Shown here in pieces: positions 4,817 to 58,535 of a stretch of DNA of 64,000 bases. This stretch comes from an uncultured Rhizobiaceae bacterium. Lineage in GTDB: Bacteria > Pseudomonadota > Alphaproteobacteria > Rhizobiales > Rhizobiaceae. Location: contig CATOTF010000002.1 of NCBI GenBank assembly GCA_951813045.1, positions 310,001 to 374,000 of the forward strand, given 5' to 3'. The position numbers and the translations under genes are program-made. Every line of letters starts with the position of its first letter. Position 1 is the first letter of the stretch. The notes below the pieces were generated by a model. The model saw only the letters and a list, made by a program, of their open reading frames with translations, was not told the DNA's origin and did no database searches.

Positions 4817-8506
<3,690 letters not shown>

Positions 8507-8510
<4 letters not shown>

Positions 8511-10606
8511 CGTGGGCTTTCATTGGGTCGCGCAACCGCCGCAATCACCGAATGACCAGAAACAACCATGGAAGAATCGTCGATTTCACATACGTCGAAG
8601 ATATCACTGGCCGCTGTATCAATTGCGCGTACCCAGTGGTTTCCCGGAGGAACGGCTGGTAATTTGACGTTCTCTTCGGCTTCATCGCGATTAAAGGCTA
8701 CAAATACCGCGTCATCAATTTGGTGCTCTACTGGAAGCTCCGCAGAGCCACGCAATGTGATGCAAAAATTCGACAAAGTCGGGTCACGCCATTGCAGAGT
8801 TTCTGCGTTGAAATCAGTCCATTCAACATCTGGAAGTCCGTCACTTTCCCTGATAGCACCGTGTAAAAACCGGCTCTGGTTTAGACAGGGGTGTTCGTGA
8901 CGGAATCGCGATAGGCGGGCGACAAAATCAATCATGGCTTCATCCGCCTTATCCCAATTCAACCATCCAATGGGATTATCCTGCGCATAGGCATTGTTGT
9001 TTCCCTTCTGTGAATTTGAAAATTCATCGCCCGCAAGCAGCATGGGCGTTCCCTGAGACAGAAATACTGTGGCCAACATATTGCGCTGGCGGCGTGCGCG
9101 ACGTTTGCGAATCTCGAGGTCGGTCGTTTCCCCTTCAACACCACAATTATCACTTAGATTGTTGTGATGGCCATCTGCGTTGTTTTCGCCATTAGCATGG
9201 TTGTGGCGTTCATTGTAGCGAGTAACATCTGCAAGTGTGAAACCGTCATGGGCCGTGACCATGTTGATCGAGCTCCAAGCTCTTCTGCCATCACGGTCGA
9301 AATTGCCTGCTGACCCAAGCAGCCTTGCGCCAAGGTCCTGAGTGCTATGGGTATCACCGCGCCAATAACGTCGCACCGTGTCTCGAAACCCGTCGTTCCA
9401 TTCGGAAAATTCGGCTGGAAACTCACCCAGGCGATAGCCACCGGGTCCCACATCCCAAGGTTCAGCAATCAATTGAACATCACTGAGGGCGGGGTCTTGG
9501 CGCAGGGCATCGAAAAACCCGCCACGCCTGTCGAAACCGTGGTCTTCACGGGCAAGGGTGGTAGCCAAATCAAACCTGAAACCGTCAACACCCATTTGCT
9601 GGACCCAGAACCGTAGACTGTCCATCACCATGCGCAGGACATAGGGGTGGGCGATATTTACAGTGTTGCCGCAACCGGTGTCGTTGACATAATAGCGGGG
9701 CTGGCCAGCAATCAGTCGGTAATAGGAAGCGTTGTCTAACCCGCGATAACAGAGCGTGGGGCCGCGCTGATCCCCCTCTGCGGTGTGATTGTAGACAACG
9801 TCCAGTATGACCTTGATGCCTGCGGCGTGAAACCGGCGAACCATTTCGCGAAACCCCTTGAAACCATTGGGGCCGAAATAACGGGGCTCCGGCGCAAAAA
9901 AACCGATTGAATTATAGCCCCAATAATTACGCAGGTTACGCTTGATGAGAAAAGAGTCATCGATAAAGGAATGAACCGGTAAAAGTTCAACCGCGGTGAT
10001 ACCCAATTTTTGCAGGTGTTCCAACACCGGCTCGGATGCCAACGCTTCGTATGAACCACGCACATCCTGCGGCACCCCGGGGTGTTGCATCGTCGACCCT
10101 TTTGGGTGGGCTTCATAGATTAACGTTTGAGACCAATCGATATTGTCTCGAGGTTCGATGTGGTTGAACAGGCTAGCGTCAGACACGACACTTTTGGTGA
10201 CAAATGGCGCACTGTCGCGCGTGTCAAAGGAGAGATCTTCCTGTGCAGATCCTTTTATGTATCCATGCGTTGTATCGTTATCTGTCCATCTGCCGCGCAA
10301 TTCTCTGGTGTACGGGTCCATCAGCAGTTTATTGACATTGAAACGGTGGCCTTGCTCCGGCGCATAGATACCATCGGCGCGATAACCATAAAGCGTGCCG
10401 GGCTTAAGCCCAGCTGCATAACCGTGCCAGACATGACCGGTACGTTCTGGAAGAGCGATCCGTTCGACTTCTTCAGAACCGTCGGGTGAAAAAACGGATA
10501 GATATAATTGCGAAGCATTGGCAGAAAAAACTGCAAAATTAGTCCCTTCACCATCAAAACGTGCGCCTAAATGATGAGGTCGTCCAGAGCTCAGTTGTAA
10601 TGGCAT
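8507..10606 (-). CDS. glgX: Glycogen debranching enzyme GlgX
   Basis: Hydrolyses alpha-1,6 branches of phosphorylase-trimmed glycogen. The 699-residue protein has an N-terminal CBM48 domain (about residues 8-100) followed by a GH13 barrel. Catalytic motifs are visible: DVVYNHTAEG, FRFDLATTLARE (nucleophile Asp), LIAEPWDVG (acid/base Glu) and VTAHDGFTLAD (His-Asp pair). These patterns and the PYTREL segment near residue 98 are typical of GlgX rather than GlgB. It lies 13 bases downstream of glgA and overlaps malQ by four bases. The operon order suggests co-expression of debranching with synthesis. Confidence 0.95.
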
Positions 10607-10619
10607 GGATTGTAACTTT

Positions 10620-12065
10620 TCATCGAGGTCCTGTTATTTTCTCATAAAGGGCCATGTATTCAGGAGCGGACTGGTTCCAACCAACGGGCTGCCGCATGGC
10701 GTTGAGAACAATCGAGTGCCAGGTGTCCTTATTTTCATAGAGGTCGCAGGTGCGACGTATTGCATCTTGGAGGGCATCGCCTGTTACAGGTTCGAACTGA
10801 ATGCCCGTTGCAGTTCTGGATTTGATCGTCGTTGCATTTGCATCGACCACCGTATCTGCAAGTCCGCCGGTGCGCGCAACGACAGGAAGAGTACCGTATC
10901 GCAGGCCGTACAATTGTGTGAGACCGCAGGGTTCAAATCGAGAAGGAACAAGAATCGCATCACTACCGCCCTGCATCAGGTGGGACAGCGCTTCATCGTA
11001 TCCAATGATAACGCCGACTGTTCCAGGATAACGGCTTGCGGCTTCAATAAATTTCCCTTCCAGATTTTTATCGCCCGATCCAAGCAGAGCCAATTGAGCA
11101 CCGCGCTTTTCAAACGTCGGTAGAACTTCCAATAAAACATCCAACCCTTTTTGGGTGGTTAGTCGGCTGACAACACAAAACAATGGGTCGTTATGCCCGG
11201 ATTTCAGCCCAAAACGTTTTTCAATTGCTGCCCTGTTTTGCTTCTTTCTGCCCAAGCTCCGATTGGTGTAATTGATCTTGAGTTCCGGGTCAGTTTTGGG
11301 ATTCCAGACATCAAGGTCAATGCCGTTAATGATACCCGTCAAGTCATCTTTTCTGGCTTTGAGTACACCCTCAAGTCCCATGCCGAATTCCGATGAAAGC
11401 AGTTCTTTCGCATAGGTGGGGCTGACGGTTGTAATCTTGTCGCTGAATACAAGACCCGCTTTGAGAAAGCCAAGGCTTCCCCAGTACTCCGCTCCTTCTG
11501 CGGTAAAATACTCGTCTGGAATGCCAAACGTCTGTTTTGTTGACCAATCAAACAAGCCCTGGAATGCGATGTTGTGAATGGTCAATACGCAACGGGGCGG
11601 TTTCTTCGCATTGCGCATTTTGATGAATAGCGGTGTCAATCCGGCATGCCAGTCATGGGCATGGACAATTTGCGGTTTCCACTTGTTAACACCATCAATC
11701 GCGATCTCTGCCGCTGCAGCGCATAGGCCACCGAAACGTAAGTGATTATCGTGCCAGTCATTCCCGGTGCCATCGAGATAGATATTGCCGGGGCGATCAA
11801 ACAGGTGGGGCGCGTTCAGTAACAGTAGATTGAGCCCATTTGCCTTAACCGCGATAATTTGCGCTGACCCACCAAACAGATCATCAAATGTATGAACGGT
11901 TTTTCCCTTTACCGCGACATCTCTCAGAGCCGGGTAACGCGGCAATAAAATCTTGACGTTCGCCCCCAGGTTTTCCAACTCTTTGGGAACGGCACCCACC
12001 ACATCAGCTAGTCCACCGGTCTTGATAAAGGGCGCACATTCGGACGCGACATAAAGAATCTTCAT
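10620..12065 (-). CDS. glgA: Glycogen synthase (ADP-glucose-dependent)
   Basis: Transfers glucose from ADP-glucose to the non-reducing end of glycogen, as a cytoplasmic GT5 glycosyltransferase. The 481-residue length is standard for bacterial GlgA. The N-terminal KTGGLADVVG (residues 15-24) is the ADP-glucose binding signature. HAHDWHAGL, the segment around VVSRLTTQKGLD, and PSRFEPCGLTQLYGLRYG near residue 370 are all in the expected order. It lies four bases downstream of glgC, which makes its substrate, and 13 bases upstream of glgX. Nothing about the gene looks unusual. Confidence 0.96.
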   Translation of the reverse strand: MKILYVASECAPFIKTGGLADVVGAVPKELENLGANVKILLPRYPALRDVAVKGKTVHTFDDLFGGSAQIIAVKANGLNLLLLNAPHLFDRPGNIYLDGTGNDWHDNHLRFGGLCAAAAEIAIDGVNKWKPQIVHAHDWHAGLTPLFIKMRNAKKPPRCVLTIHNIAFQGLFDWSTKQTFGIPDEYFTAEGAEYWGSLGFLKAGLVFSDKITTVSPTYAKELLSSEFGMGLEGVLKARKDDLTGIINGIDLDVWNPKTDPELKINYTNRSLGRKKQNRAAIEKRFGLKSGHNDPLFCVVSRLTTQKGLDVLLEVLPTFEKRGAQLALLGSGDKNLEGKFIEAASRYPGTVGVIIGYDEALSHLMQGGSDAILVPSRFEPCGLTQLYGLRYGTLPVVARTGGLADTVVDANATTIKSRTATGIQFEPVTGDALQDAIRRTCDLYENKDTWHSIVLNAMRQPVGWNQSAPEYMALYEKITGPR

Positions 12066-12069
12066 AAAC

Positions 12070-13329
12070 TCAACCCAGTGCGTCGATCATCTTTTTGGTG
12101 ATTAGACACACGCCATCTTCCGAACGATAAAACCGTTTTGCATCCAGCTCGTGATCTTTCCCCACTTCCAGTCCTTCGGGGATGCTAACCCCCCGATCAA
12201 TAATAACACGATCAAGCCAGGCGTTCCGTCCAATCTGGACATAAGGCAATGCAACAACTCCATTGAGAGTAGAATAGGAACTGACTCGTACACCGGTAAA
12301 CAGGAGGCATCTTTCGAGTTGGGAACCGGAAATTATACAACCGCCGGAAACGAGCGATGAAAGTGCTTGCCCGCGCCGACCGTCTTCATTGCGAATAAAT
12401 TTGGCCGGTGGTGTCAGTTCTGAATAGGTCCAAATTGGCCAATCCTGGTCATAAAGGTCGAGTTCCGGGTTGGAGTCAGTGAGATCAATATTCGCTTGCC
12501 AAAAGGCATCGATTGTCCCCACATCACGCCAATAAGCTTTCTTTTCGATACCGGTCTGCACACAGGAACGGCTGAACGGGTGGGCGATTACCTTTTTCCC
12601 GTTCTTAACCAGAAGTGGAATAATATCTTTGCCGAAATCATGACTAGAAGCGTCATTTTTGGCGTCGTTTTTCAAAATATTGAGCATATAATCTGTTTCG
12701 AAGACATAAATTCCCATGCTGGCGAGGGCTAAATCCGGATTTCCGGGCATTGCCGGCGGATCAGCTGGTTTCTCAACGAAATCAATGACCCGGTCCTTCT
12801 CATCAACGTGCATGACACCAAAACCTGTCGCCTCCATACGCGGCACTTCAATACAGCCCACGGTGACATCGGCGCCACTGTCGACGTGATGCTGGATCAT
12901 CACGGAATAGTCCTGTTTGTAGATATGATCCCCCGCCAAAATGATCACATACTTTGTGTTATTGCCCTCAATGACTTCGATATTCTGGTAAACCGCATCT
13001 GCGGTTCCCTTGTACCAATTGTTTTCATCGAGTTGTTGGGATGCGGGAAGGATATCAAGAGACTCATTGCGTTCGGCGCGGAAAAAGCTCCAACCGCGTT
13101 GTAGGTGACGGATGAGAGAATGGGCTTTGTATTGTGTTGCAACTCCAAGACGGCGGATGCCGGAATTGACGGCGTTCGACAATGGAAAATCGATGATACG
13201 GGTTTTACCGCCAAAATAGACAGCAGGTTTTGCGCGACGGTCTGTGAGGTCCATCAATCGGCTGCCTCGACCACCCGCTAAAACAAATGCCATGGTCTGC
13301 TGCGCCAGTCTCTGCGATTCCTGTCCCAT
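12070..13329 (-). CDS. glgC: Glucose-1-phosphate adenylyltransferase
   Basis: Makes ADP-glucose from ATP and glucose-1-phosphate, the committed and usually allosteric step of glycogen synthesis. The 419-residue protein has the nucleotidyl-transferase loop AGGRGSRL at residues 18-25, then [11 protein letters not shown], whose Lys-Pro-Ala segment is in the activator/substrate region. It continues with [11 protein letters not shown] and a C-terminal left-handed beta-helix. Alphaproteobacterial GlgC enzymes are commonly activated by fructose-6-phosphate and pyruvate; whether that holds here cannot be seen. The gene sits 53 bases after glgB, the widest gap within the operon apart from none, and is followed closely by glgA. 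Confidence 0.96.
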
Positions 13330-13382: not shown

Positions 13383-15323
13383 TCATCGCCGCTCAAAAAA
13401 GATTGTTGTTAGAGGGGGAACTGTGATCTCGATGGAATGATCCTGGCCTGATGCGCGAATATTCTCGCTCTCAACTCCGCCAAAGTTTCCGCGGTCGTCT
13501 CCCCCGTAGTGATTTGAATCCGTGTTTAGTTTTTCTATCCAAAACCCTGCTTCAGGTACACCAATGCGCCGTGCACTGCGCTCAATCGGTGTGAAGTTTG
13601 AAATGACCAGAACCGGAGGTGAATTTCTATTCCCCTTACGATGCCAAGCGAATATGGATTCGTCTGACGCATCAGCTTCTATCCATTCGAAGCCTTCCTC
13701 CCTGCAGTCCAACTGGTACATCGCTGGTGTGGCTCTGTAGAAGCTATTGAGGTCGCGAATGAGGTTTTGCATGCCGCTATGCAAAGGTTGGTCGAGCAAA
13801 TGCCAATCTAATGAGGATTCATGGTTCCACTCATCCCATTGCGCAATTTCGTTGCCCATGAACAGTAGTTTTTTGCCCGGGTGACCCCACATGAAGCCGT
13901 AATAGGCGCGAAGATTTGCAAACTTTTCATTCATGTCCCCCGGCATTTTACTGATCATTGAGCCCTTGCCGTGTACTACCTCATCGTGGCTGAGTGGTAG
14001 GACGAAATTCTCCGAAAATGCGTAGTGGATGCCAAACGCCATCTTATGATGGTGGTGTTTTCGATGGACTGGATCCTCCTCCATGTAGGAGAGTGTGTCG
14101 TTCATCCATCCCATATTCCATTTGAAACCAAAACCGAGACCGCCCTGATCGGTTGACATGCTGACACCTGGAAACGCAGTGGATTCTTCTGCGACTGTCA
14201 TGATACCGGGCGTGTCGTCGTAGACGGTCTCATTCATCCTTTTTAGAAAGGAAATGGCTTCAAGGTTTTCACGCCCGCCGTGAACATTTGGTATCCATTC
14301 GCCCTCCTTGCGTGAATAATCGCGATAGAGCATTGATGCCACCGCATCGACGCGCAAGCCATCAAGATGGTGTTCTCGCAGCCAGTAGACAGCGTTGGCA
14401 ATCAGGTAATTAGCCACTTCCCGCCGGCCGTAATTGTACAAAAGCGTATTCCAGTCCGGGTGAAACCCTTCCTTTCGGTCCGCATGTTCATAGAGCGCGG
14501 TTCCATCGAAATTTCCAAGGCCGTGCTCGTCCTCTGGAAAGTGTCCCGGCACCCAATCCAGCAAAAGCCCGATATCGGCGTTATGGCATGCCTCCACAAA
14601 TGTGCGGAACTCTTCCAGCGTGCCATACCGGATTGTCGGGGCATAAAGTCCAACGGGCTGATATCCCCACGACCCGTCAAAGGGAAACTCGGTAATTGGC
14701 ATCAATTCGATATGGGTGAACCCCATATCCACGACATAATCTACCAGTTGGATGGCGTGTTCGAGATAAGAAAGCGGCCGGTTCCCTTCCTGATTGACAC
14801 GTTTCCATGAACCCAGGTGGACTTCATAAATAGATATGGGTTGGTCAAAACGGTTTATTGCTTCGCGCCGCTTCATCCATTTGTTATCGTTCCATTCATG
14901 TCGATTCAGACGGCGAACAACAGATGCTGTTTTTGGTGGATGTTCCGCACCAAATCCGAAGGGGTCGGCCTTTTGAGGCAGGATGTGTCCGTTGAGGTCA
15001 CATATCTCGAATTTATAGGCCGCACCTTCGCCGATATCGGGTACAAATGTCTCCCAAACGCCGGTCGATCCTCTTGGAACCATCAGGCTTTGGTCACCGT
15101 TCCAGTGGTTGAAATCACCAACAACAGAAACCTGCTTCGCATTAGGTGCCCAAACTGCAAAATGTACACCTGCTATATCGCCTTCGCCTGCGACATGGGC
15201 GCCAAGTGCTTCCCATAATCGCCAATGGTTTCCCTCAGTGATCAGATAATCATCCAAGTCTCCAAGGCTGGCGGTCTGGTCTTTCCTTGCATTCGGTGTT
15301 GTTTTCTTTTTGGCCTTAGCCAT
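13383..15323 (-). CDS. glgB: 1,4-alpha-glucan branching enzyme
   Basis: Introduces alpha-1,6 branches into glycogen. From the ATG at 15323 the protein has about 646 residues, with a basic N-terminal tail (MAKAKKK), a CBM48 domain (about residues 40-125) and a GH13 barrel. Catalytic motifs are LRVDAVASMLYRDYS (nucleophile Asp), VAEESTAFPG (Glu) and LSHDEVVHGKGS (His-Asp). The N-terminus is the short one, lacking the extra N1 domain of E. coli GlgB. A GTG at 15335 is an alternative start that would overlap glgP by 11 bases. I prefer the ATG, one base after the glgP stop. The gene is second in the operon. Confidence 0.94.
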   Translation of the reverse strand: MAKAKKKTTPNARKDQTASLGDLDDYLITEGNHWRLWEALGAHVAGEGDIAGVHFAVWAPNAKQVSVVGDFNHWNGDQSLMVPRGSTGVWETFVPDIGEGAAYKFEICDLNGHILPQKADPFGFGAEHPPKTASVVRRLNRHEWNDNKWMKRREAINRFDQPISIYEVHLGSWKRVNQEGNRPLSYLEHAIQLVDYVVDMGFTHIELMPITEFPFDGSWGYQPVGLYAPTIRYGTLEEFRTFVEACHNADIGLLLDWVPGHFPEDEHGLGNFDGTALYEHADRKEGFHPDWNTLLYNYGRREVANYLIANAVYWLREHHLDGLRVDAVASMLYRDYSRKEGEWIPNVHGGRENLEAISFLKRMNETVYDDTPGIMTVAEESTAFPGVSMSTDQGGLGFGFKWNMGWMNDTLSYMEEDPVHRKHHHHKMAFGIHYAFSENFVLPLSHDEVVHGKGSMISKMPGDMNEKFANLRAYYGFMWGHPGKKLLFMGNEIAQWDEWNHESSLDWHLLDQPLHSGMQNLIRDLNSFYRATPAMYQLDCREEGFEWIEADASDESIFAWHRKGNRNSPPVLVISNFTPIERSARRIGVPEAGFWIEKLNTDSNHYGGDDRGNFGGVESENIRASGQDHSIEITVPPLTTIFFERR

Positions 15324-15324
15324 T

Positions 15325-17700
15325 TTACAGCGCACTCACATTCCAGATATCGCGAGCATAACCTGAAATTGTGCGGTCTGACGAGAACCAACCCATCCTT
15401 GCGGTGTTGAGAATTGCTCTTCTACCCCAGGTATTGGTATCGCGGTAATCAATATCCACCTGGCGCTGGGTTTTGAAATAGTCATCAAAATCCGCCGTCA
15501 CAAGGAAATAGTCATGCTCGTACATGCGTTGAACAAGTGACGCGTGGCGGTTTGAGTCCCCTGGCGAGAATTCGCCCGATTGTATCTGATCCAGAACCTT
15601 GATCAATCTTGGGCTCGCCTCGATTGCCAGTCGGGCAAAATCCTGTTCTTCACGGCGGGCGACAACTTCCTGAGCGGTAAGACCGAACAGATAAAAGTTT
15701 TCAGCACCTACATGGTCACGAATTTCAACATTGGCTCCATCTAGCGTGCCAATAGTCAATGCGCCGTTTAATGCGAATTTCATATTACCGGTGCCTGAAG
15801 CTTCCTTACCGGCGGTGGATATCTGCTCGGATAAATCAGTAGCCGGAATCAAAATTTCCGCCATCGTCACATTGTAATTTTCCGGAAAGGCGACTTGCAG
15901 AATTTCGCTAGTCACAGGGTCATTGTTGATCCGTACTGCTACGTCGTTGATTAGATGAATAATCTCTTTTGCAACCAAATAACCTGGAGCGGCTTTACCC
16001 CCGAAAATTTTTAACCGGGGTGTCCAGTCGCCGGATGGGTTATCTCTAATCTCATTCCAAAGTGCTATTGTCTCAAGAATGTTCATCAGCTGACGCTTGT
16101 ATTCATGTAACCGCTTGATTTGCACGTCAAACATGGCATTGGGATTGATAATCGTTCCGTTTCGGTCCTTGATCCATTCTGCAACACGCCGCTTGTTCTG
16201 CGTTTTTGCAGCTCTGAATTTTTCGATAAATGCGCTATCGGCAGCGTGTGGCTCCAGTTTTACGAGACGTTCCAGATCGTCGGGCCAATCGGTTCCAATT
16301 GTCTCATTAATCAGGCTACGTAGTGGTGGATTGCATGAATGTAGCCACCGGCGCGGCGTAATTCCGTTGGTCTGATTGATGGCCCGCCCTGGGTAAGATG
16401 CGTTGAGATCGGTAAACAGGTTTGCTTTCACCAGATCACTGTGAAGAGCTGATACACCGTTGACTTTATGCGCCATAATGAATGAAAGCTCACCCATCTT
16501 GACGGAACCGTTTTCGATTATCCGTACATTGCTACCCGTTGCTGTGCGATGAGCATCTTCTATGAGTTCGATAATACGATGATGGCGGGGCAATATGCGA
16601 GCAAACAGATCTTCGTCCCATCGTTCAAGGGCTTCCGATAGTAATGTGTGATTGGTGTAGGCCAGACATTGCCGCGCAAGCGCGATCGCGTCATCCATGG
16701 CTACACCGTGTTCGTCGGTGAGTATCCTGACCAGTTCCGGCCCGGCAATTGCCGGATGGGTGTCGTTCAACTGGATTGCAACATGTTCCGGCAAAGTTGT
16801 TATTTCGTGGCCTTCCGACAGGAAACGCCGGACCAGGTCCTGAATTGATGCTGCGGTGAAAAAGTATTCCTGTTTCAGCCGCAGTTCCTTACCAGTGTCG
16901 GTGGTATCATCGGGGTAGAGCACCCTTGAGATGGTGCGCGCCAATGCTTCCGGCTCACTTGCAGCAAGATAATTTCCCTCGTTAAATCGCTGTAAATCAA
17001 ATAATAGAGTTGGTTTTGCAGACCACAAGCGCAGGGTGTTGGCCCATTTTCCACCCCACCCGACAATCGGTGTGTCATATGCAGAAGCCAAGATGGTTTC
17101 TGCAGGGTGCCAAACCGCGGTGTTCTCGGTTTGATGTACAGATCCACCAAATCCAATTTCATAACTAACTTCTGGGCGTTCGAATTCCCAAGCATGTTTT
17201 TGTGCCAGCCAGTGTTCGGCCGTCTCTATTTGTTTGCCGTCTTCAAAAGCCTGTTCGAAAAGACCGTGTTCGTAGCGAATACCGTATCCATACGCGGGAA
17301 TTCCCAATGTTGACAAACTATCAAGAAAACAGGCTGCGAGCCGCCCGAGGCCGCCGTTGCCCAAAGCTGCATCCGGCTCATCATAAACGACTGTGGAATA
17401 ATCCTGCCCGAGGTCTTCGATTGTTTGGCGAGCAACTTCATCAAGGCGCAAGTTGATCATGACGTCCTCAATCAAACGTCCGATGAGAAATTCCATTGAC
17501 AGATAATAAACTCGCTTGGCTTTCGCCTCGTATGTTTTCCGTGTGCTGGCAAACCACGGGTCGACTACAAGGTCACGTAGTGCGAGCGACAAGGACATAC
17601 GCCAGTCATAGGTTGTCGCGTGGGAGACATCCTTGCCCAATGAATAGTTTAAATGGCGAAGAATTTCTGTTCGCAACTGTTGCGTGTTAACCGGGTTCAT
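15325..17700 (-). CDS. glgP: Glycogen phosphorylase
   Basis: Releases glucose-1-phosphate from glycogen ends with phosphate and pyridoxal phosphate. The 791-residue protein shows the phosphorylase landmarks: YYLSMEFLIGR near residue 68, GNGGLGRLAACFLDS near 113, LNDTHPAIAGPE near 312, and the PLP-binding KEASGTGNMKFALNGALT, where the Lys in NMKF carries the cofactor. It is the first gene of the seven-gene glycogen operon. A GGAAG element precedes the ATG. The upstream non-coding region carries the near-palindromic motif at 17774-17791 that is shared with zwf and the polyamine transporter, so this promoter is likely under a carbon-responsive repressor or activator. Confidence 0.96.
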   Translation of the reverse strand: MNPVNTQQLRTEILRHLNYSLGKDVSHATTYDWRMSLSLALRDLVVDPWFASTRKTYEAKAKRVYYLSMEFLIGRLIEDVMINLRLDEVARQTIEDLGQDYSTVVYDEPDAALGNGGLGRLAACFLDSLSTLGIPAYGYGIRYEHGLFEQAFEDGKQIETAEHWLAQKHAWEFERPEVSYEIGFGGSVHQTENTAVWHPAETILASAYDTPIVGWGGKWANTLRLWSAKPTLLFDLQRFNEGNYLAASEPEALARTISRVLYPDDTTDTGKELRLKQEYFFTAASIQDLVRRFLSEGHEITTLPEHVAIQLNDTHPAIAGPELVRILTDEHGVAMDDAIALARQCLAYTNHTLLSEALERWDEDLFARILPRHHRIIELIEDAHRTATGSNVRIIENGSVKMGELSFIMAHKVNGVSALHSDLVKANLFTDLNASYPGRAINQTNGITPRRWLHSCNPPLRSLINETIGTDWPDDLERLVKLEPHAADSAFIEKFRAAKTQNKRRVAEWIKDRNGTIINPNAMFDVQIKRLHEYKRQLMNILETIALWNEIRDNPSGDWTPRLKIFGGKAAPGYLVAKEIIHLINDVAVRINNDPVTSEILQVAFPENYNVTMAEILIPATDLSEQISTAGKEASGTGNMKFALNGALTIGTLDGANVEIRDHVGAENFYLFGLTAQEVVARREEQDFARLAIEASPRLIKVLDQIQSGEFSPGDSNRHASLVQRMYEHDYFLVTADFDDYFKTQRQVDIDYRDTNTWGRRAILNTARMGWFSSDRTISGYARDIWNVSAL

Positions 17701-17773: not shown

Positions 17774-17791
17774 AAATTTCAATCGATTTAA
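17774..17791 (-). promoter_or_regulatory. Putative operator upstream of glgP (shared motif)
   Basis: Read toward glgP, the sequence is TTAAATCGATTGAAATTT, a near-palindrome centred on CG like LacI-family operators. The 14 bases at 17778-17791 are identical to the site upstream of zwf (58522-58535). The 16 bases at 17774-17789 are identical, in reverse complement, to the site upstream of the polyamine-type transporter (28877-28892). All three point the same way relative to the downstream gene. This one lies about 75-90 bases upstream of the glgP ATG. The regulator is unknown. Confidence 0.6.
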
Positions 17792-20526: not shown

Positions 20527-20901
20527 ATGAGACATAAATCAGGAACCCAAGGATCAGGTTCAGAGAAATTGATCCGAACCATCAAACGCAAGACCCGCCG
20601 TCAGTATAGTGCGGAGGAAAAGATCCGCATTGTGCTTGATGGCTTGCGCGGTGAAGACAGCATAGCTGAACTGTGCCGCCGTGAAGGTCTTGCTGAAAGC
20701 ATGTACTACAAATGGTCGAAGGAGTTTATGGAGGCCGGTAAAAAGCGTCTGTCAGGCGATATAGTGCGTGAGGCTTCCACCGATGAGGTCAAAGGTCTGC
20801 GCCGTGAAGCCCGTGATCTGAAGGAATGCGTGGCAGATCTCACGCTGGAAAACCGTCTTCTTAAAAAAAGCATGATCGCGGATGGGGAGGATATCGAATG
20901 A
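20527..20901 (+). CDS. IS3-family transposase OrfA (HTH)
   Basis: A 124-residue protein with a helix-turn-helix of the transposase-8 type: RRQYSAEEKIRIVLDGL, then ELCRREGLAESMYYKWSKEF. It ends in a leucine-zipper-like coiled coil (LRREARDLKECVADLTLENR) that dimerises OrfA and OrfAB. It binds the IS ends and can regulate transposition. The start at 20527 is preceded by GGAGCGAAG; an ATG at 20491 would lie inside the terminal repeat region. It overlaps OrfB by four bases. A slippery A7 at 20863 allows a -1 shift into the open OrfB frame. Confidence 0.88.
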   Translation: MRHKSGTQGSGSEKLIRTIKRKTRRQYSAEEKIRIVLDGLRGEDSIAELCRREGLAESMYYKWSKEFMEAGKKRLSGDIVREASTDEVKGLRREARDLKECVADLTLENRLLKKSMIADGEDIE

Positions 20902-21878
20902 GATACCCAGCATCTGAGAAACTGGAAATCATCCGAATTGTTGAACAATCACATCTGCCAGCCAAGGTGACACTTGATAAGCTTGGCGTCTCACGGCCAA
21001 CTTTTTATCGCTGGTATGATTTGTATCAGCGATTGGGTGAGACAGGATTGGAAGACAAACGTTCTGGTCCCAACAGAGCCTGGAACCGCGTGCCAGAAAA
21101 TATACGGGCACAGATCATTGATCTGGCCCTTGATCAACCGGAACTGTCTCCTCGTGAACTGGCTGTGACATTCACAGACACGAAGGCCTATTTTGTATCG
21201 GAAAGCTCAGTGTACCGACTGCTCAAGGCCCTGGACCTGATCACCAGCCCGGCATTTATCGTCATGAAAGCTGCCAGTGAGTTCCGCGACAAGACCACAG
21301 CCATCAACCAGCTGTGGCAAACAGACTTCACCTATCTGAAGGTCATTGGCTGGGGTTGGTTCTATCTCAGTACGATCCTTGATGATTATTCGCGATACAT
21401 CATTGCCTGGAAGCTGTGTACCACCATGAACACATCGGATGTGACCGATACATTGGAAATGGCGCTTCAGGCCTCAGGCTGCGACAGGGCCAACGTTGCG
21501 CATAAACCCCGGCTACTATCTGATAATGGCCCCTGCTACATATCCAGTGATCTGGCAGAGTGGTTGGATGGCAAAGGCATGGGTCATGTTCGCGGTGCGC
21601 CTTATCACCCGCAAACCCAAGGCAAGATTGAACGCTGGCATCAAACCCTGAAGAACCGCATCTTGCTGGAACACTACTTCATACCAAGTGACTTAAACCG
21701 GCAGATCGAAGCTTTCATCGAACATTATAATCATCACAGATACCACGAGAGCCTGAGTAATCTCACGCCTGCGGACGTCTACTTCGGGCGCAAAAATGAG
21801 ATATTGAAGCGAAGAGAAAGGATCAAACAAAAAACCATCGAAACGCGGCGCTTGCAACACCGCAAACAAGCCGCATAA
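20898..21878 (+). CDS. IS3-family transposase OrfB (DDE integrase)
   Basis: A 326-residue protein with an N-terminal HTH segment (LDKLGVSRPTFYRWYDLYQ) and an rve integrase core. The DDE residues are visible as Asp in WQTDFTYLKV, Asp in LLSDNGPCYIS and Glu in HPQTQGKIERWHQTLK. It catalyses cutting and joining of the element, usually as an OrfAB fusion made by -1 frameshifting. The frame upstream of its ATG is open back to the A7 slippery run, as the fusion needs. The reading frame is complete and shows no damage. Confidence 0.92.
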   Translation: MRYPASEKLEIIRIVEQSHLPAKVTLDKLGVSRPTFYRWYDLYQRLGETGLEDKRSGPNRAWNRVPENIRAQIIDLALDQPELSPRELAVTFTDTKAYFVSESSVYRLLKALDLITSPAFIVMKAASEFRDKTTAINQLWQTDFTYLKVIGWGWFYLSTILDDYSRYIIAWKLCTTMNTSDVTDTLEMALQASGCDRANVAHKPRLLSDNGPCYISSDLAEWLDGKGMGHVRGAPYHPQTQGKIERWHQTLKNRILLEHYFIPSDLNRQIEAFIEHYNHHRYHESLSNLTPADVYFGRKNEILKRRERIKQKTIETRRLQHRKQAA

Positions 21879-28849: not shown

Positions 28850-28876
28850 TCTGCAAGAATTTTACATTGTCTTCTA

Positions 28877-28892
28877 AAATCGATTGAAATTT
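28877..28892 (+). promoter_or_regulatory. Putative operator upstream of polyamine-type transporter (shared motif)
   Basis: AAATCGATTGAAATTT here is identical over 16 bases to the sequence upstream of glgP (17774-17789, minus strand) and shares its 12-base core with the site upstream of zwf. It has the same orientation relative to the downstream gene as the other two. It lies about 150 bases upstream of the ATPase start. Confidence 0.5.
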
Positions 28893-28959
28893 GTAAAGAT
28901 CGAAAAAAACCACCGAATAACGCGCATTTGAGACGAATGTCGCGGTTGACGTCGCATAT

Positions 28960-28995
28960 GAACAAATGTTCTTTAACGTGAAGAAACATTGTTTC
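28960..28995 (+). promoter_or_regulatory. Tandem palindromes upstream of polyamine-type transporter
   Basis: Two related perfect inverted repeats: GAACA-AA-TGTTC at 28960-28971 and GAAACA-T-TGTTTC at 28983-28995, with centres about two helical turns apart. A TTGACG -35-like hexamer lies just upstream (about 28945). The second resembles the published KdgR/IclR-type box, but a regulator for polyamine uptake using this box is not known to me. A short hairpin (GGCAC/GTGCC, then CTTTTG) follows at 29004-29023, just before the ribosome-binding site. Confidence 0.5.
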
Positions 28996-29043
28996 ATGAA
29001 TGAGGCACGAAAAGTGCCCTTTTGATTGGTAGGGAGCGCCAGT

Positions 29044-52511: not shown

Positions 52512-54479
52512 ATGACGAATATCTCTCCAACGTTTGGGGTGTGTTATTACCCTGAACACTGGCCCCGCGACATGTGGGAGGAAGATGCCGTGCGCATGGT
52601 TGAATGCGGAATTCAATATGTTCGCATCGCCGAATTTGCCTGGTCGAGAATTGAAATCAAAAGGGATCAGTTTGACTGGGAATGGTTGGATAATGCCATT
52701 TCGGTGTTGGGTGCGGCGGGCCTGAAAGTGGTCATGTGTACACCCACCGCTACACCGCCAAAATGGCTGGTCGATGAAATGCCCGACATGGTTGCTGTGG
52801 ATGAAAATGGCAAGCCTCGCAAATGGGGCTCCCGTCGCCATTACGATTTTTCCCATATCGGATATCGCAAGGAAAGTGCTCGCATTACCGAGATATTTGC
52901 AAAACGTTATGGCGAGAATCCCCATGTCGTTGCCTGGCAAACGGATAATGAATACGGCTGCCACGCAACAATCGTGAGCTACTCGAATGCGGCCAAAGAA
53001 GGTTTCCGTGATTGGCTTGCCCAGAAATATCAATCCCCTGACGCGCTTAATCGTGCCTGGGGAAACGTCTTCTGGTCGATGGAAGTTCAGGATTTTTCGG
53101 AAGTAGAGCTTCCCAACTTGACGGTAACGGAGCCGAACCCGTCACACATATTGGACTTCAGAAGATACACATCCGATCAGGTTGTTGAATTCAACCGTAT
53201 TCAAACGCAGATACTGAGAAAACTTGCCCCGGGCCGTGACCTGATTCACAATTTCATGGGTCATTTTTTGGAATTCGACCATTACGATGTGGCGCAGGAC
53301 CTTGATGTCGCGGGGTGGGATTCCTACCCCCTTGGCAATCTGGAGCGGCATTTCGATGATGCTAACTGGAAGGCCTGGTACCTGCGGGCAGGGGACCCGG
53401 ACATGCAGGCGTTTCATCACGACCTTTATCGCGGCTGTACCCCCGAAAAACGCATGTGGGTGATGGAACAGCAACCCGGCCCAGTAAATTGGGCACCGTG
53501 GAATCCCGACCCGCATCCGGGCATGGTTCGCCTGTGGAGCCATGAAGCGTTTGCCCACGGTGCTGAGGTCGTCAGTTATTTCCGTTGGCGGCAGGCCCCA
53601 TTTGCGCAGGAGCAGTTTCACGCCGCACTCAACCGGCCGGACGGTTCGCCCGACCGCGGGTATGAAGAAGCCGAGCAGGTTTCTAACGAGCTTGCAGCAC
53701 TTCCGAATACGAAGACCGAAAAGGCCAAGGTTGCCCTCCTGTTCGATTATGCATCGATCTGGGCCACGGAAATACAACGCCAAGGTGCGGACTATGATGG
53801 TTTTATCCTGGTGCGCGAATTTTACGCGGCCCTTCGAAAATTGGGCCAGAACATCGATGTAATTTCAACCCGCAGCGATCTGACCGGATACGAACTCATC
53901 GTCGTGCCCCACCTTTTGATGGTTGATCAGGCGCTGGTTGACAAGCTTGAAAAATCAGGTGCTCGTGTCGTTTTAGGACCTCGATCCGGTTCGCGAACCA
54001 GAAGCCATCAAATCCCCGACGCTTTGGCACCAGGGTTGTTGCAACAATTGATACCAATGCGCGTTTTGCGGGTTGAGAGCATTCGTCCGGGAATCGTCAT
54101 TCCGGTGGAAGGCATCGGATCATTTTCAAAATGGGCGGAACAGGTTGAACCGGGCGACGGGACTGATGTCCTTCTCACCGGTGGTGAAGGATACCCGGCG
54201 TGGGTGAGAAATAAGAGCTGTTCATATATTGCAGGATGGCCGGATCAGAACCTGCTTTCTCAAATCATGAAAGAAACGTTGCAGAACTGTGGCCTGACGA
54301 TTGTCGAGACCGGAGAAGACCTGCGCATTCGTGACCGGGGGCAAATACGCACAATCGTCAACTATGGACCAAAACCACAAGATGCCAGCGGCTTAATTGA
54401 TAGAAATGATGAGATATTGATCGGCACCACGATGATCAACGTGGGTGGGGTTATTATTCTGCATCGAGCGGTGCGTTAG
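52512..54479 (+). CDS. Beta-galactosidase (GH42)
   Basis: A 655-residue GH42 enzyme that hydrolyses terminal beta-galactosides. It begins [20 protein letters not shown], the family N-terminus. The acid/base Glu147 is in AWQTDNEYG and the nucleophile Glu319 in [12 protein letters not shown] barrel domain (residues 1-385), a trimerisation domain (about 390-590) and a short beta C-terminal domain fit the family. No signal peptide is seen, so it works on imported sugars. The ribosome-binding site is weak (GGAAC). Its stop overlaps the convergent edd stop by four bases. With the GH36 enzyme, the locus can open both alpha- and beta-galactosidic bonds. Confidence 0.93.
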
Positions 54480-56284
54480 AATACGCTTGCGCCAGTGTCG
54501 GCAGTGCTAACCACATTGCGGAATGCCGAAAATAATTCAACACCCATGCCGAATTGATTGCCCGACAGATCAGCCTTGGCTGGTGTACGAGCGGCCCATT
54601 CATCGTCCGCCACCAGTGCGGTAAGTTCACCGGTTATTGCATTCAGTCGAACAATATCACCATCGCGCAGCAGGGCAATGCCTCCGCCATCGGCCGCTTC
54701 CGGCGTCACATGAATGGCGGCGGGAACTTTGCCGGATGCGCCGGACATGCGGCCATCGGTGACCAAGGCAACCTTAAATCCGCGGTCCTGCAATACACCC
54801 AAGGGCGGAGTCAGCTTGTGAAGCTCAGGCATGCCGTTGGATCGCGGGCCCTGAAAACGGCAGACTGCGATGACATCCATATTCAATTCGCCCACTTCAA
54901 ACGCTTCCTTGATGCCATTTTGCGTATTGAAAATACGTACGGGTGCTTCCACCACGTGATGCTCTTTTCTAACCGCAGATATCTTGATTACGGCCCGCCC
55001 GATATTGCCGTCGAGCATCTTTAGGCCACCGTCTTTTGAAAATGGATTATCTACGGTCGAGAGGATTTTATCGTTTCCAGCCACACCTGGTGCATCGCTC
55101 CAAATGACCGTGTCACCATCCAGTTTCGGTTCTTTTGCCTGTTGGCTCATACCGCTGCCGGCAATGGTTTTTACGTCCTCATGGAGTTGTCCGCCGCGCA
55201 GGAGTTCTCCGATCACATAGGGAAGACCACCGGCTGCGTGAAAATGGTTCACGTCCGCCATGCCGTTTGGATAGACCCGCGCCAAAAGGGGCGTGCATGC
55301 GGCAAGGTCAGAAATATCTTCCAGAGACAGGCAAATGCCTGCTGCTTTCGCAATCGCAACCAAATGCATCACATGGTTGGTAGAACCGCCGGTCGTGTGA
55401 AGGCCGATCACACCGTTGACAATTGCTTTCTCGTCAATCACATGGCCCACTGGTGTAAACTCGTTACCGCTGCCAGTAATGGCCAGTGCCCGTTGTGTCG
55501 CGGCACGGGTCAGTGCGTCGCGCAAGGGTGTGCCGGGGTTGATGAAACTGGAACCGGGAAGATGCAGTCCCATGAATTCCATTAACATCTGGTTGGAATT
55601 TGCAGTGCCGTAAAATGTGCATGTGCCCGGAGAATGGTATGATGCACTCTCAGCTTCCAACAGTTCTTTTCGACCCACTTTCCCTTCCGCATAAAGCTGA
55701 CGGATGCGCACTTTTTCCGGGTTTGACATGCCGGAGGGCATTGGGCCAGCGGGCACGAAGACTGCCGGCAGGTGACCAAAGCTCAATGCTCCTATGAGCA
55801 GGCCGGGAACAATCTTGTCGCAAACCCCAAGATAGAGCGCAGCATCAAACATATTGTGAGACAGGCCCACAGCCGTTGCCATCGCGATAATATCACGGGA
55901 AAAAAGCGACAGTTCCATGCCTTTTTGGCCTTGGGTAACGCCGTCGCACATGGCCGGAACACCCGATGCAATCTGCGCAACACCACCAGCCTCACGTGCG
56001 GCCTCTTTTATGATGTCGGGAAACCGGCCAAACGGTTGATGGGCGGACAACATATCGTTGTAAGAGGTGACAATTGCGAGGTTGGAAACCACATCGCCTG
56101 CCAAGGCCGATTTATCTTCTGACCCACATGCGGCAAAGCCATGGGCAAGGTTGCCACAAGTCAACGATGAGCGGTGAGGACCTTCGCTTGCTGCGATATC
56201 CAACCGTTCCAAATAGGCTTCACGGGTGGGTTTACTGCGTTCAACAAGGCGGTCGGTTACAGCTTTTACTGCAGCAATAGTCAT
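54476..56284 (-). CDS. edd: Phosphogluconate dehydratase
   Basis: A 602-residue IlvD/Edd-family dehydratase that turns 6-phosphogluconate into KDPG in the Entner-Doudoroff pathway. Iron-sulfur ligand Cys residues lie in [20 protein letters not shown] (near residue 120) and [19 protein letters not shown] (near 215). The C-terminal [20 protein letters not shown] is the family signature. It is the third gene of the zwf-pgl-edd operon, 33 bases after pgl. A KDPG aldolase is not next to it; the dgoA-like aldolase 10 kb away is attached to the galactose operon, and a separate eda presumably exists elsewhere. Confidence 0.95.
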
Positions 56285-56317: not shown

Positions 56318-57025
56318 TTACGGTGTCCAATAGACCTGCAATTGGACGTCAGGGTGACGGATGATGTGCCGCACGGGCATGTCATCGGCAGGGCCATCTT
56401 CAAGTGTTTTTTCAAAAACCGCGCGTTTTTCCGCCCCTTCAATGTGAAGAATGAGATTTTTGGCGGAGACGATGGCGGGCAAGGTCATGGTAATACGGGG
56501 TTCACCGGCACCGGGTGCGGAGATCGGCAGGAAGAGTTTTTCACCGGAAGGGTCGCAGGCAGCCGATAGATTATCTGCGCCGGGGAAAAATGAGGCCGTA
56601 TGCCCGTCTAACCCCATGCCCAGTGTTACAACGTCGAAAGGCAGTTCATCATCCTCGCGCAGGCGGGATTCCGCCATATTGGCGGCTTCCTCGACGGAAC
56701 TGTTTGCATCGTAGAGTGTCAGAAATTCGCTGGCCGGATGGTCGAGCAGGCCAAGACATGTGCGGATCATCTGCGCGTTGCTGCGTCCGTTATCATCGGG
56801 CACGAAACGTTCATCTACCAGTGCGAAGTAGACCATGTCTTTGGCGTCGCCCAGTTCTTTTCCAAGGCGTTCGAGAAACGCTTTTGGCGTTGAACCACCG
56901 GAAAGGGCAATTGATGCAAAATCGCCTTCCATCATATTGGTCGACAAGGCGCCTTTGACGAATTGCGTCAGCGCATCGGTCAAAGCGTCCCGCGTGTCGA
57001 ACTCATGGAATTGCGCAATAGCCAC
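56318..57025 (-). CDS. pgl: 6-phosphogluconolactonase
   Basis: A 235-residue lactonase of the DevB/NagB-like fold that hydrolyses 6-phosphogluconolactone to 6-phosphogluconate. The family segments ASIALSGGSTPKAFLERLG, YFALVDERFVPDDNGRSNA and LGMGLDGHTASFFPG are all present. The start is GTG in a TAGTG overlap with zwf, so the two are coupled. It is the middle gene of zwf-pgl-edd, the standard order in rhizobia. Length and motifs are normal. Confidence 0.95.
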   Translation of the reverse strand: MAIAQFHEFDTRDALTDALTQFVKGALSTNMMEGDFASIALSGGSTPKAFLERLGKELGDAKDMVYFALVDERFVPDDNGRSNAQMIRTCLGLLDHPASEFLTLYDANSSVEEAANMAESRLREDDELPFDVVTLGMGLDGHTASFFPGADNLSAACDPSGEKLFLPISAPGAGEPRITMTLPAIVSAKNLILHIEGAEKRAVFEKTLEDGPADDMPVRHIIRHPDVQLQVYWTP

Positions 57026-58491
57026 TATTGGTCCCCGTCATTCCAAGTGCGGTGGTCCCGTTCGATCAGGGCAATGGATTGGCTTGGCCCCCATGTGCCT
57101 GCCGTATAATTGCTTACCGGATGGGATGTTTCTTCCCAGGCTTCGAAAATTGGGTCAATCCATTTCCATGCTTCTTCAACTTCATCGCGGCGCATAAACA
57201 AAGTCTGGTTGCCGCGAATAACATCGAGCAACAGTCGTTCGTATGCATCGGGGCTGCGGTGTTCGAAGTTCTCGGCAAAGCTCATATCGAGAGGCAAATG
57301 TTTGAGCCGCATGCCGCCGGGACCGGGGTCTTTAATCATGATCCATTGCTTCACGGATTCATCTGGCTGTAATCGCAAGACCAGCCGGTTGGAAATTGGT
57401 GCCCCAGCATCTTTGCCAAAGATGGAATAGGGCACGGGTTTAAACTGAATGACAATTTCTGACATGCGCATCGCCATGCGTTTTCCGGTGCGCAGATAAA
57501 AGGGAACGCCACTCCAGCGCCAGTTCTCAACCTCGGCCTTAAGCGCGACAAATGTTGCGGTATCGCTGTCTTCACCCAATTCATTGAGGTATCCGTCAAC
57601 TTTTCCATCCGGTCCGGCACCGGCGTGATATTGGGCGCGAACCGTGTTTTCTGCCGGGATAGGTTTCAGGGACCGAAGAACTTTCAGTTTTTCATCGCGG
57701 ATGGAATCCGCATCCGCCGATGCGGGCGCTTCCATTGCCACAAGGCAAAGCAATTGCATGAGATGGTTTTGCACCATGTCGCGCATTGCACCGGATTTAT
57801 TGTAATAGCCGACACGGTCTCCCACACCGACAGTCTCAGCTACAGTAATTTGAACGTGATCAATGTGAGATGAATTCCACAAAGGCTCAAATAGTGCGTT
57901 AGCGAACCGCAGGGCAAGGAGGTTTTGAACCGTTTCTTTGCCGAGATAATGATCGATCCGGAAAACCTGTTTCTCGCCAAAATACTGACCAACTTCACTG
58001 TTCAGTTTTTGGGCGGAATCAAGATCACGCCCCAGTGGTTTTTCGATCACAACACGGGAGTTATCATCGACGAGGCCAAACCTGTTTAGCCGTTCGGATA
58101 TGGAACCAAACAGGGTTGGCCCAACTGCCAGATAAAAGGCGCGAATTTTCCCCGGTGTGGATTTTTCCAGACATGCCTGCAAATTATCCCAGCCACCATC
58201 AGATGTGGCGTCAATTCTCACGTAGTCGAGCCGGTTTAAAAAACGCTGGAGACTTTCTTCACTGCGGTGTTCTTCCGACACATGTTCGCGCAAGGCATCA
58301 TGGGCAATCTTCTGATAATCTTCGCGGGAAAGATCACCACGCGATGCGCCAATCATGCGGGCGTCGTCTGGCAATTGTCCGTCATGATCACGATGATAAA
58401 GTGCTGGAAGTAATTTCCGTTGCGCGAGATCACCGGTACCGCCAAAGATGACGTAATCAAACGGCTCAACAGGGATGATTTTGCTGGTCAT
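57025..58491 (-). CDS. zwf: Glucose-6-phosphate 1-dehydrogenase
   Basis: A 488-residue enzyme that oxidises glucose-6-phosphate to 6-phosphogluconolactone. The nucleotide-binding loop is FGGTGDLAQRKLLPALY near residues 16-32, and the active-site motif FRIDHYLGKETVQNLL, with its catalytic His, is near residue 177. It is the first gene of the Entner-Doudoroff operon. Upstream, 31-44 bases before the ATG, lies the near-palindromic operator shared with glgP and the polyamine-type transporter. Its place at the promoter suggests direct control of Entner-Doudoroff flux by that unknown regulator. Confidence 0.96.
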   Translation of the reverse strand: MTSKIIPVEPFDYVIFGGTGDLAQRKLLPALYHRDHDGQLPDDARMIGASRGDLSREDYQKIAHDALREHVSEEHRSEESLQRFLNRLDYVRIDATSDGGWDNLQACLEKSTPGKIRAFYLAVGPTLFGSISERLNRFGLVDDNSRVVIEKPLGRDLDSAQKLNSEVGQYFGEKQVFRIDHYLGKETVQNLLALRFANALFEPLWNSSHIDHVQITVAETVGVGDRVGYYNKSGAMRDMVQNHLMQLLCLVAMEAPASADADSIRDEKLKVLRSLKPIPAENTVRAQYHAGAGPDGKVDGYLNELGEDSDTATFVALKAEVENWRWSGVPFYLRTGKRMAMRMSEIVIQFKPVPYSIFGKDAGAPISNRLVLRLQPDESVKQWIMIKDPGPGGMRLKHLPLDMSFAENFEHRSPDAYERLLLDVIRGNQTLFMRRDEVEEAWKWIDPIFEAWEETSHPVSNYTAGTWGPSQSIALIERDHRTWNDGDQ

Positions 58492-58521: not shown

Positions 58522-58535
58522 TTCAATCGATTTAA
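58522..58535 (-). promoter_or_regulatory. Putative operator upstream of zwf (shared motif)
   Basis: Read toward zwf it is TTAAATCGATTGAA, identical over 14 bases to the site upstream of glgP and sharing its 12-base core with the site upstream of the polyamine-type transporter. It ends about 30 bases before the zwf ATG, where it could overlap the promoter or transcription start. Confidence 0.6.

Follow-up and report, generated by a model that had tools for sequence, protein, structure and literature searches.

Predicted PckR-type operators before the glycogen and Entner-Doudoroff operons of an Ahrensia-like genus of the Rhizobiaceae

PckR is a LacI-family switch of the Rhizobiales whose regulon is described in PMC4052901, where pckA, pykA and zwf-pgl-edd are named as members. 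For S. meliloti (SMc02975) the motif is quoted as TNNAANCGNTT and the signal as phosphoenolpyruvate; pckA and fbaB each have two sites there, whereas zwf, mgsA and eda2 have a single one (PMC8877191). A pckR mutant of R. leguminosarum (RL4145) has zwf-pgl-edd strongly up and pckA down (PMC11406972), and in fitness data PckR behaves as an activator (PMC5443562). The Xanthobacteraceae regulon is minimal, with edd rather than zwf listed (PMC4052901), and in Xanthobacter pckR is published as lying beside a divergent gnd. The GapR regulon of the Rhodobacteraceae is similar in placing zwf, gapA, eno, pykA and pckA under a LacI-family regulator, but that protein is non-orthologous to PckR, has a different 20-bp consensus and belongs to a different order (PMC4052901). 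FruR/Cra of the enterobacteria is likewise a LacI-family global switch of glycolysis and gluconeogenesis, though not orthologous, and PckR has been called its partial functional replacement (PMC4052901).

The window analysed here is the 64,000-nucleotide stretch G000:C2:310001-374000 of an uncultured Rhizobiaceae bacterium (G000; order Hyphomicrobiales; 4.84 Mb in two contigs), and its features are collected in Table 1. NCBI assigns Ahrensia to the Ahrensiaceae. Scanning the window gave three exact copies of AAATCGATTGAA; the longer form TTAAATCGATTGAA is exact before glgP and zwf and has one mismatch at 28875-28888 (+), while the 16-mer AAATCGATTGAAATTT is found twice, in the leaders of glgP and of a polyamine-type transporter. 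A sequence-only reading of this DNA had reported these copies with the correct letters and coordinates and had placed them in non-coding leaders, and all three are indeed intergenic by the called genes. It had also stressed their common orientation; each site does lie on the strand of its downstream gene, but the site is near-palindromic and same orientation therefore says little. Two of the copies stand before operons, glgP being the first gene of the tightly packed run glgP-glgB-glgC-glgA-glgX-malQ-pgm, and zwf the first of zwf-pgl-edd. An integrase-core (transposase-like) gene at 20898-21878 separates the glycogen operon from the polyamine genes.

Table 1. Features of the window and of related loci. 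Positions are those of the window unless a contig is given; leader places are matches to TTNAATCGATTNAA with at most one mismatch from the genome-wide scan.
Feature	Position	Strand	Remarks
Operator TTAAATCGATTGAA, predicted PckR-type, glycogen operon	17778..17791	(-)	78-91 bp before glgP ORF start (17700); AAATCGATTGAA at 17778-17789; leader place
Operator TTAAATCGATTGAA, predicted PckR-type, zwf-pgl-edd	58522..58535	(-)	31-44 bp before zwf ORF start (58491); AAATCGATTGAA at 58522-58533; leader place
Look-alike AAATCGATTGAA	28877..28888	(+)	between agmatinase and polyamine-type ABC transporter genes; transporter ATPase ORF starts at 29026; leader place
glgP, glycogen phosphorylase	15325..17700	(-)	TIGR02093
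glgB	13383..15335	(-)	
glgC	12070..13329	(-)	
glgA	10620..12065	(-)	
glgX	8507..10606	(-)	TIGR02100
malQ, 4-alpha-glucanotransferase	6462..8510	(-)	TIGR00217
pgm, phosphoglucomutase	4817..6448	(-)	NF005737; last gene of the tightly packed series that follows the glgP operator
zwf	57025..58491	(-)	TIGR00871
pgl	56318..57025	(-)	TIGR01198
edd	54476..56284	(-)	TIGR01196
L027, best candidate regulator	G000:C2:244008-245015	(-)	outside the window
pckA of G014	G014:C1:276560-277855		locus L305
Leader place, gltA			shared with divergent ComEC-like ORF
Leader place, gapA			
Leader place, DUF1036 gene, then pykA			
Leader place, pckA			divergent from response regulator
Leader place, eno			at stop codon of preceding gene
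Leader place, flotillin/solute-binding-protein leader			
Leader place, LysR gene			at its stop codon

The locus compares closely with the PckR regulon. The site is near-palindromic and CG-centred, TTAAATCGATT, present in both the glgP and the zwf sites, fits the PckR motif, and both pckA and zwf-pgl-edd are predicted targets, with two sites at the former and one at the latter; pykA is a target in both systems, and here too the candidate regulator is unlinked to its targets. The LacI-type operator proposed from the sequence is supported by the CG-centred inverted repeat and by a target set that is PckR's. We consider it probable that PckR, or its ortholog in this genus, reads the copies before glgP and zwf as operators, with L027 as the best candidate gene.

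The sequence-only reading had argued from an expected count of 0.008, and the mean number of exact copies of AAATCGATTGAA per shuffled window is likewise low (0.017 in 60 shuffles). However, the window holds three different 12-mers with at least three copies, as against a mean of 2.4 and a maximum of 7 in shuffled windows, and that argument is not supported; since AAATCGATTGAA was chosen after the fact and shuffles give similar repeats, the copy count alone proves nothing. It might be supposed from these shuffles, and from the lack of conservation of the transporter copy, that all three copies are a functionless chance repeat. We regard this as extremely improbable, because in the congeners the copies before zwf and glgP stand out as conserved islands.

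Comparison with relatives places the zwf and glgP copies well beyond chance. In the aligned leaders of both genes the operator forms a clear island of conservation, and in the glgP leader it is the most conserved stretch. Before zwf, a site with 0-2 mismatches to TTNAANCGNTTNAA is found in 11/11 evaluable congeners, ten of them with 0-1 mismatch, and in 5/5 evaluable other members of the family, comprising 3/3 from other genera and two from an order-wide sample (counts made without G010 and G015, where zwf meets a contig edge). Thirteen of 14 zwf leaders (11 congeners and three from the family) have a site with 0-1 mismatch, compared with 1.4% of shuffled 200-bp leaders, and no zwf leader that has a site contains a second with 0-1 mismatch. 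The glgP gene is present in 7/14 congeners and is preceded by a site in 7/7, at about -76 to -100, four being exact, one having one mismatch and two being degenerate with two mismatches (the incomplete glgP of G015 is not counted). Conservation of the sites before orthologous zwf and glgP genes, which the sequence-only reading had named among the tests of its proposal, is thus upheld. The seven congeners in which glgP is missing include the nearly complete assemblies G001, G005, G011 and G013, and glycogen metabolism is therefore patchy in the genus. The order-wide scan found the zwf site in 2/2 family members besides G000 and, at 0-1 mismatch, in 0/33 genomes outside the family (G051, G065 and G099, with only weak zwf homologs, were left out). 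Six of these 33 have a 48-52% relative of L027; their lack of a zwf site may be explained by the minimal Xanthobacteraceae regulon, listing edd and not zwf, if they are of the Xanthobacteraceae.

The transporter copy behaves differently. In 0/11 congeners do the 200 bp preceding the gene contain a match with fewer than three mismatches, the best having 3-4, and the polyamine link is ruled out as a conserved feature. The copy is probably a chance or species-specific one and, taken alone, is most readily explained as a chance repeat. Of the single signal that had been proposed for three systems, the joining of glycogen with the Entner-Doudoroff operon is supported, but that of polyamine uptake is not. 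Recurrence of a 12-mer within a single window carries little weight before relatives have been consulted; here two of the copies stood the comparison and the third did not. When the transporter leaders of ten congeners and G000 were aligned, a different stretch, GTTGACGTCGCA..., unrelated to the operator, was seen to be kept in most of the congeners (window 28950-29000).

Sites of the same kind precede pckA and gapA. At least one site with 0-2 mismatches lies before pckA in 13/13 congeners having the gene, and a pair of sites 51-54 bp apart is found in G000 and 10/13 congeners; elsewhere the spacing is 41 bp (G018), 31 bp (G017) and 30 bp (G016), and no site was found before pckA in G015, which carries an L027 relative. 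Such a pair arises in only 0-1.3% of shuffles of each of 18 pckA leaders. The spacings of 51-54, 41, 31 and 30 bp (leaders L295, L315, L316 and L318) differ by genus and are close to five, four and three helical turns, with just three of the values being independent. A conserved CTTGTC-17 bp-TAGTGT stretch resembling a promoter follows the second site in G000, 34 bp downstream of it as counted by eye. Outside the family a pckA site with 0-1 mismatch occurs in 1/9 genomes, namely G028, the sole one with an L027 relative. Before gapA, 9/11 congeners have a site with 0-1 mismatch, and of seven order genomes outside the genus three were scanned, of which 0/3 have one.

The genome-wide scan advocated in the sequence-only reading extends the list of targets, at the cost of some noise. 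The tight pattern TTNAATCGATTNAA, allowing at most one mismatch, occurs at 21 places in G000 compared with nine for a reversed control pattern; by our own ORF calls, 11 of the 21 lie within ORFs and 10 in or at the edge of leaders. Seven of the latter precede central-carbon genes (glgP, zwf, gapA, eno, pykA, gltA and pckA), the pykA place being counted as a leader because the ORF call is judged too long, its domain starting at residue 27. Matches before pckA, gapA, pykA, eno and gltA are of the kind that the sequence-only reading had asked for, but with 11/21 inside ORFs the raw scan is only borderline by its rule that a majority of matches within genes would count against the proposal. None of the 10 leader matches can be assigned to mdh-sucCDAB, sdhABCD, fba, glk or eda, further targets listed for the PckR regulon, and weaker sites would escape such a scan. 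The looser pattern TTNAANCGNTTNAA, matched exactly, gave 19 places compared with 15 for its control, and was dropped as a definition of the regulon for being too noisy.

Turning to the protein, there are 13 LacI-domain genes in G000 and 0/13 lie in the window, as had been anticipated from the window itself. We compared four motif-bearing genomes, G000 and three others that all carry the sites (G005, G013 and G018), and reciprocal best hits in each of the three mark out four of the 13 LacI groups (L021, L026, L027 and L028); the nine remaining genes lack such a hit in at least one of the three and were dropped as candidates. L027 joins a LacI DNA-binding domain to a periplasmic-binding-protein-like sensor (PF00356, PF00532, PF13377), and is found in 12/14 congeners (70-91%), in 4/4 other family members, where identity is only 52-56%, and in G028 (49%). 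Its recognition helix reads TVSL compared with TVSR in the common LacI class, a class linked to a conserved G in the site (PMC2978694); the TVSR paralogs L017, L018 and L022 have G at -6 in the palindromes of their own leaders, a position occupied by T in the present motif. Exceptions occur: the AglR-like L026 is TVSR, but its own palindrome lacks G at -6. To judge from the helices, L027 would fit the motif best of the four shared groups. The leader palindromes TGCAATCGATTACA and TGTAATCGATTACA of L018 (G000:C2:1610970-1614101; at 1333 and 1389, before the gene) have the ATCGAT core in common with the operator, but with G at -6. On this comparison among the LacI proteins of these genomes, L027 is the putative ortholog of PckR and the predicted reader of the sites.

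It also should be considered that another of the shared LacI proteins (L021, L026 or L028) reads the sites, with L027 a local regulator. Each of the three is as consistent as L027 in its reciprocal best hits, and L027 adjoins genes for 8-oxoguanine deaminase and D-erythronate dehydrogenase, neighbours that are not PckR targets and could mean a local role. The L027 leader in G000 has no site with up to two mismatches, contrary to the earlier hope of a regulator with the site before itself, and the leaders of its orthologs have one in only 1/12 congeners (G011, one mismatch). Among the 80 named loci kept around L027 relatives, which include no named Sinorhizobium or Rhizobium sequence, 0/80 hold a site with 0-1 mismatch. 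A 6PGDH signature, as might be looked for from the published gnd neighbour, was seen beside none of the L027 relatives scanned (mostly flanks of ~1.5 kb; none known Xanthobacter). Nevertheless, we think this alternative unlikely: the L026 leader holds its own palindrome TCAAAGCGCTTTGA, which is the published AglR motif (PMC4052901), L021 has an arginine-class helix (TS..R), and L028, judged by eye, is without the usual hinge leucine (IYAVNQN), the residue that inserts at the central CG (PMC2978694). Moreover, two 40-42% relatives of L027 with the same helix, in G036 and G079, have AAACGATTGAA ~105 bp before their own gene (at about 1398 in L252 and about 1396 in L253), which suggests that distant L027-like proteins may regulate themselves through the same motif.

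A regulator of a different family, RpiR/HexR-like or other, would be suggested by G014, a congener whose 0.9 Mb genome is 98% complete. It is without any LacI-domain gene, yet two near-sites separated by 51 bp persist before its pckA. However, zwf is also lost there and the near-sites may be relics. Sites of the LacI family take the form of an inverted repeat, centred on CG, with AA/TT arms (PMC2978694), and the target set is PckR's, and we give a regulator from outside the LacI family very little credence.

Returning to L027 as the proposed reader of these sites, its helix-turn-helix and hinge would allow a dimer to bind TTNAANCGNTTNAA, a palindrome centred on CG. Bound at single sites, which lie near the start for zwf and gapA and in the leader for glgP, it would repress sugar breakdown and glycogen turnover, a state that would be set when the cell grows on organic acids. 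At pckA the two sites lie ahead of the promoter, roughly whole helical turns apart, and would allow it to activate gluconeogenesis. Repression and activation would both be reversed by a signal from glycolysis, which the published model takes to be phosphoenolpyruvate. We infer which way the individual genes would be controlled, and that glycogen is under this control.

Much of this is a known system with a longer list of targets, of which the glycogen operon is a possible extension. A conserved target at the glycogen operon sets the present genus apart from the PckR regulon as described; gapA, eno and gltA likewise fall outside the list in the text of PMC4052901, a statement that covers neither its Figure 7 nor the RegPrecise tables. 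The term 'glgp' is absent from the main text of that paper, figures and RegPrecise being outside the scope of the search, and glgP may already be recorded as a target in either. Our literature search found no paper joining PckR with glycogen, and none for LacI, glycogen phosphorylase, Entner-Doudoroff, zwf and Rhizobiales together. Possibly new, then, are the conserved glycogen operon target and the pckA pairs spaced by about three, four or five helical turns. We hold it to be an evenly balanced proposition that in the Ahrensia-like genus the entire glycogen operon came under the PckR switch, as a conserved target with a single site, with two pckA sites about whole helical turns apart (51-54, 41 and 30-31 bp) in a spacing that varies by genus.

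The analysis adds the Ahrensia-like genus to those with a PckR regulon, and suggests that glycogen metabolism is among the targets. If this is true, one signal would set carbon storage, entry into the Entner-Doudoroff pathway and gluconeogenesis together. The helical-turn spacing at pckA bears on how a single site may serve one protein for repression and a pair of sites for activation, and glycogen as a PckR target could explain how the choice is made between storing and burning carbon.
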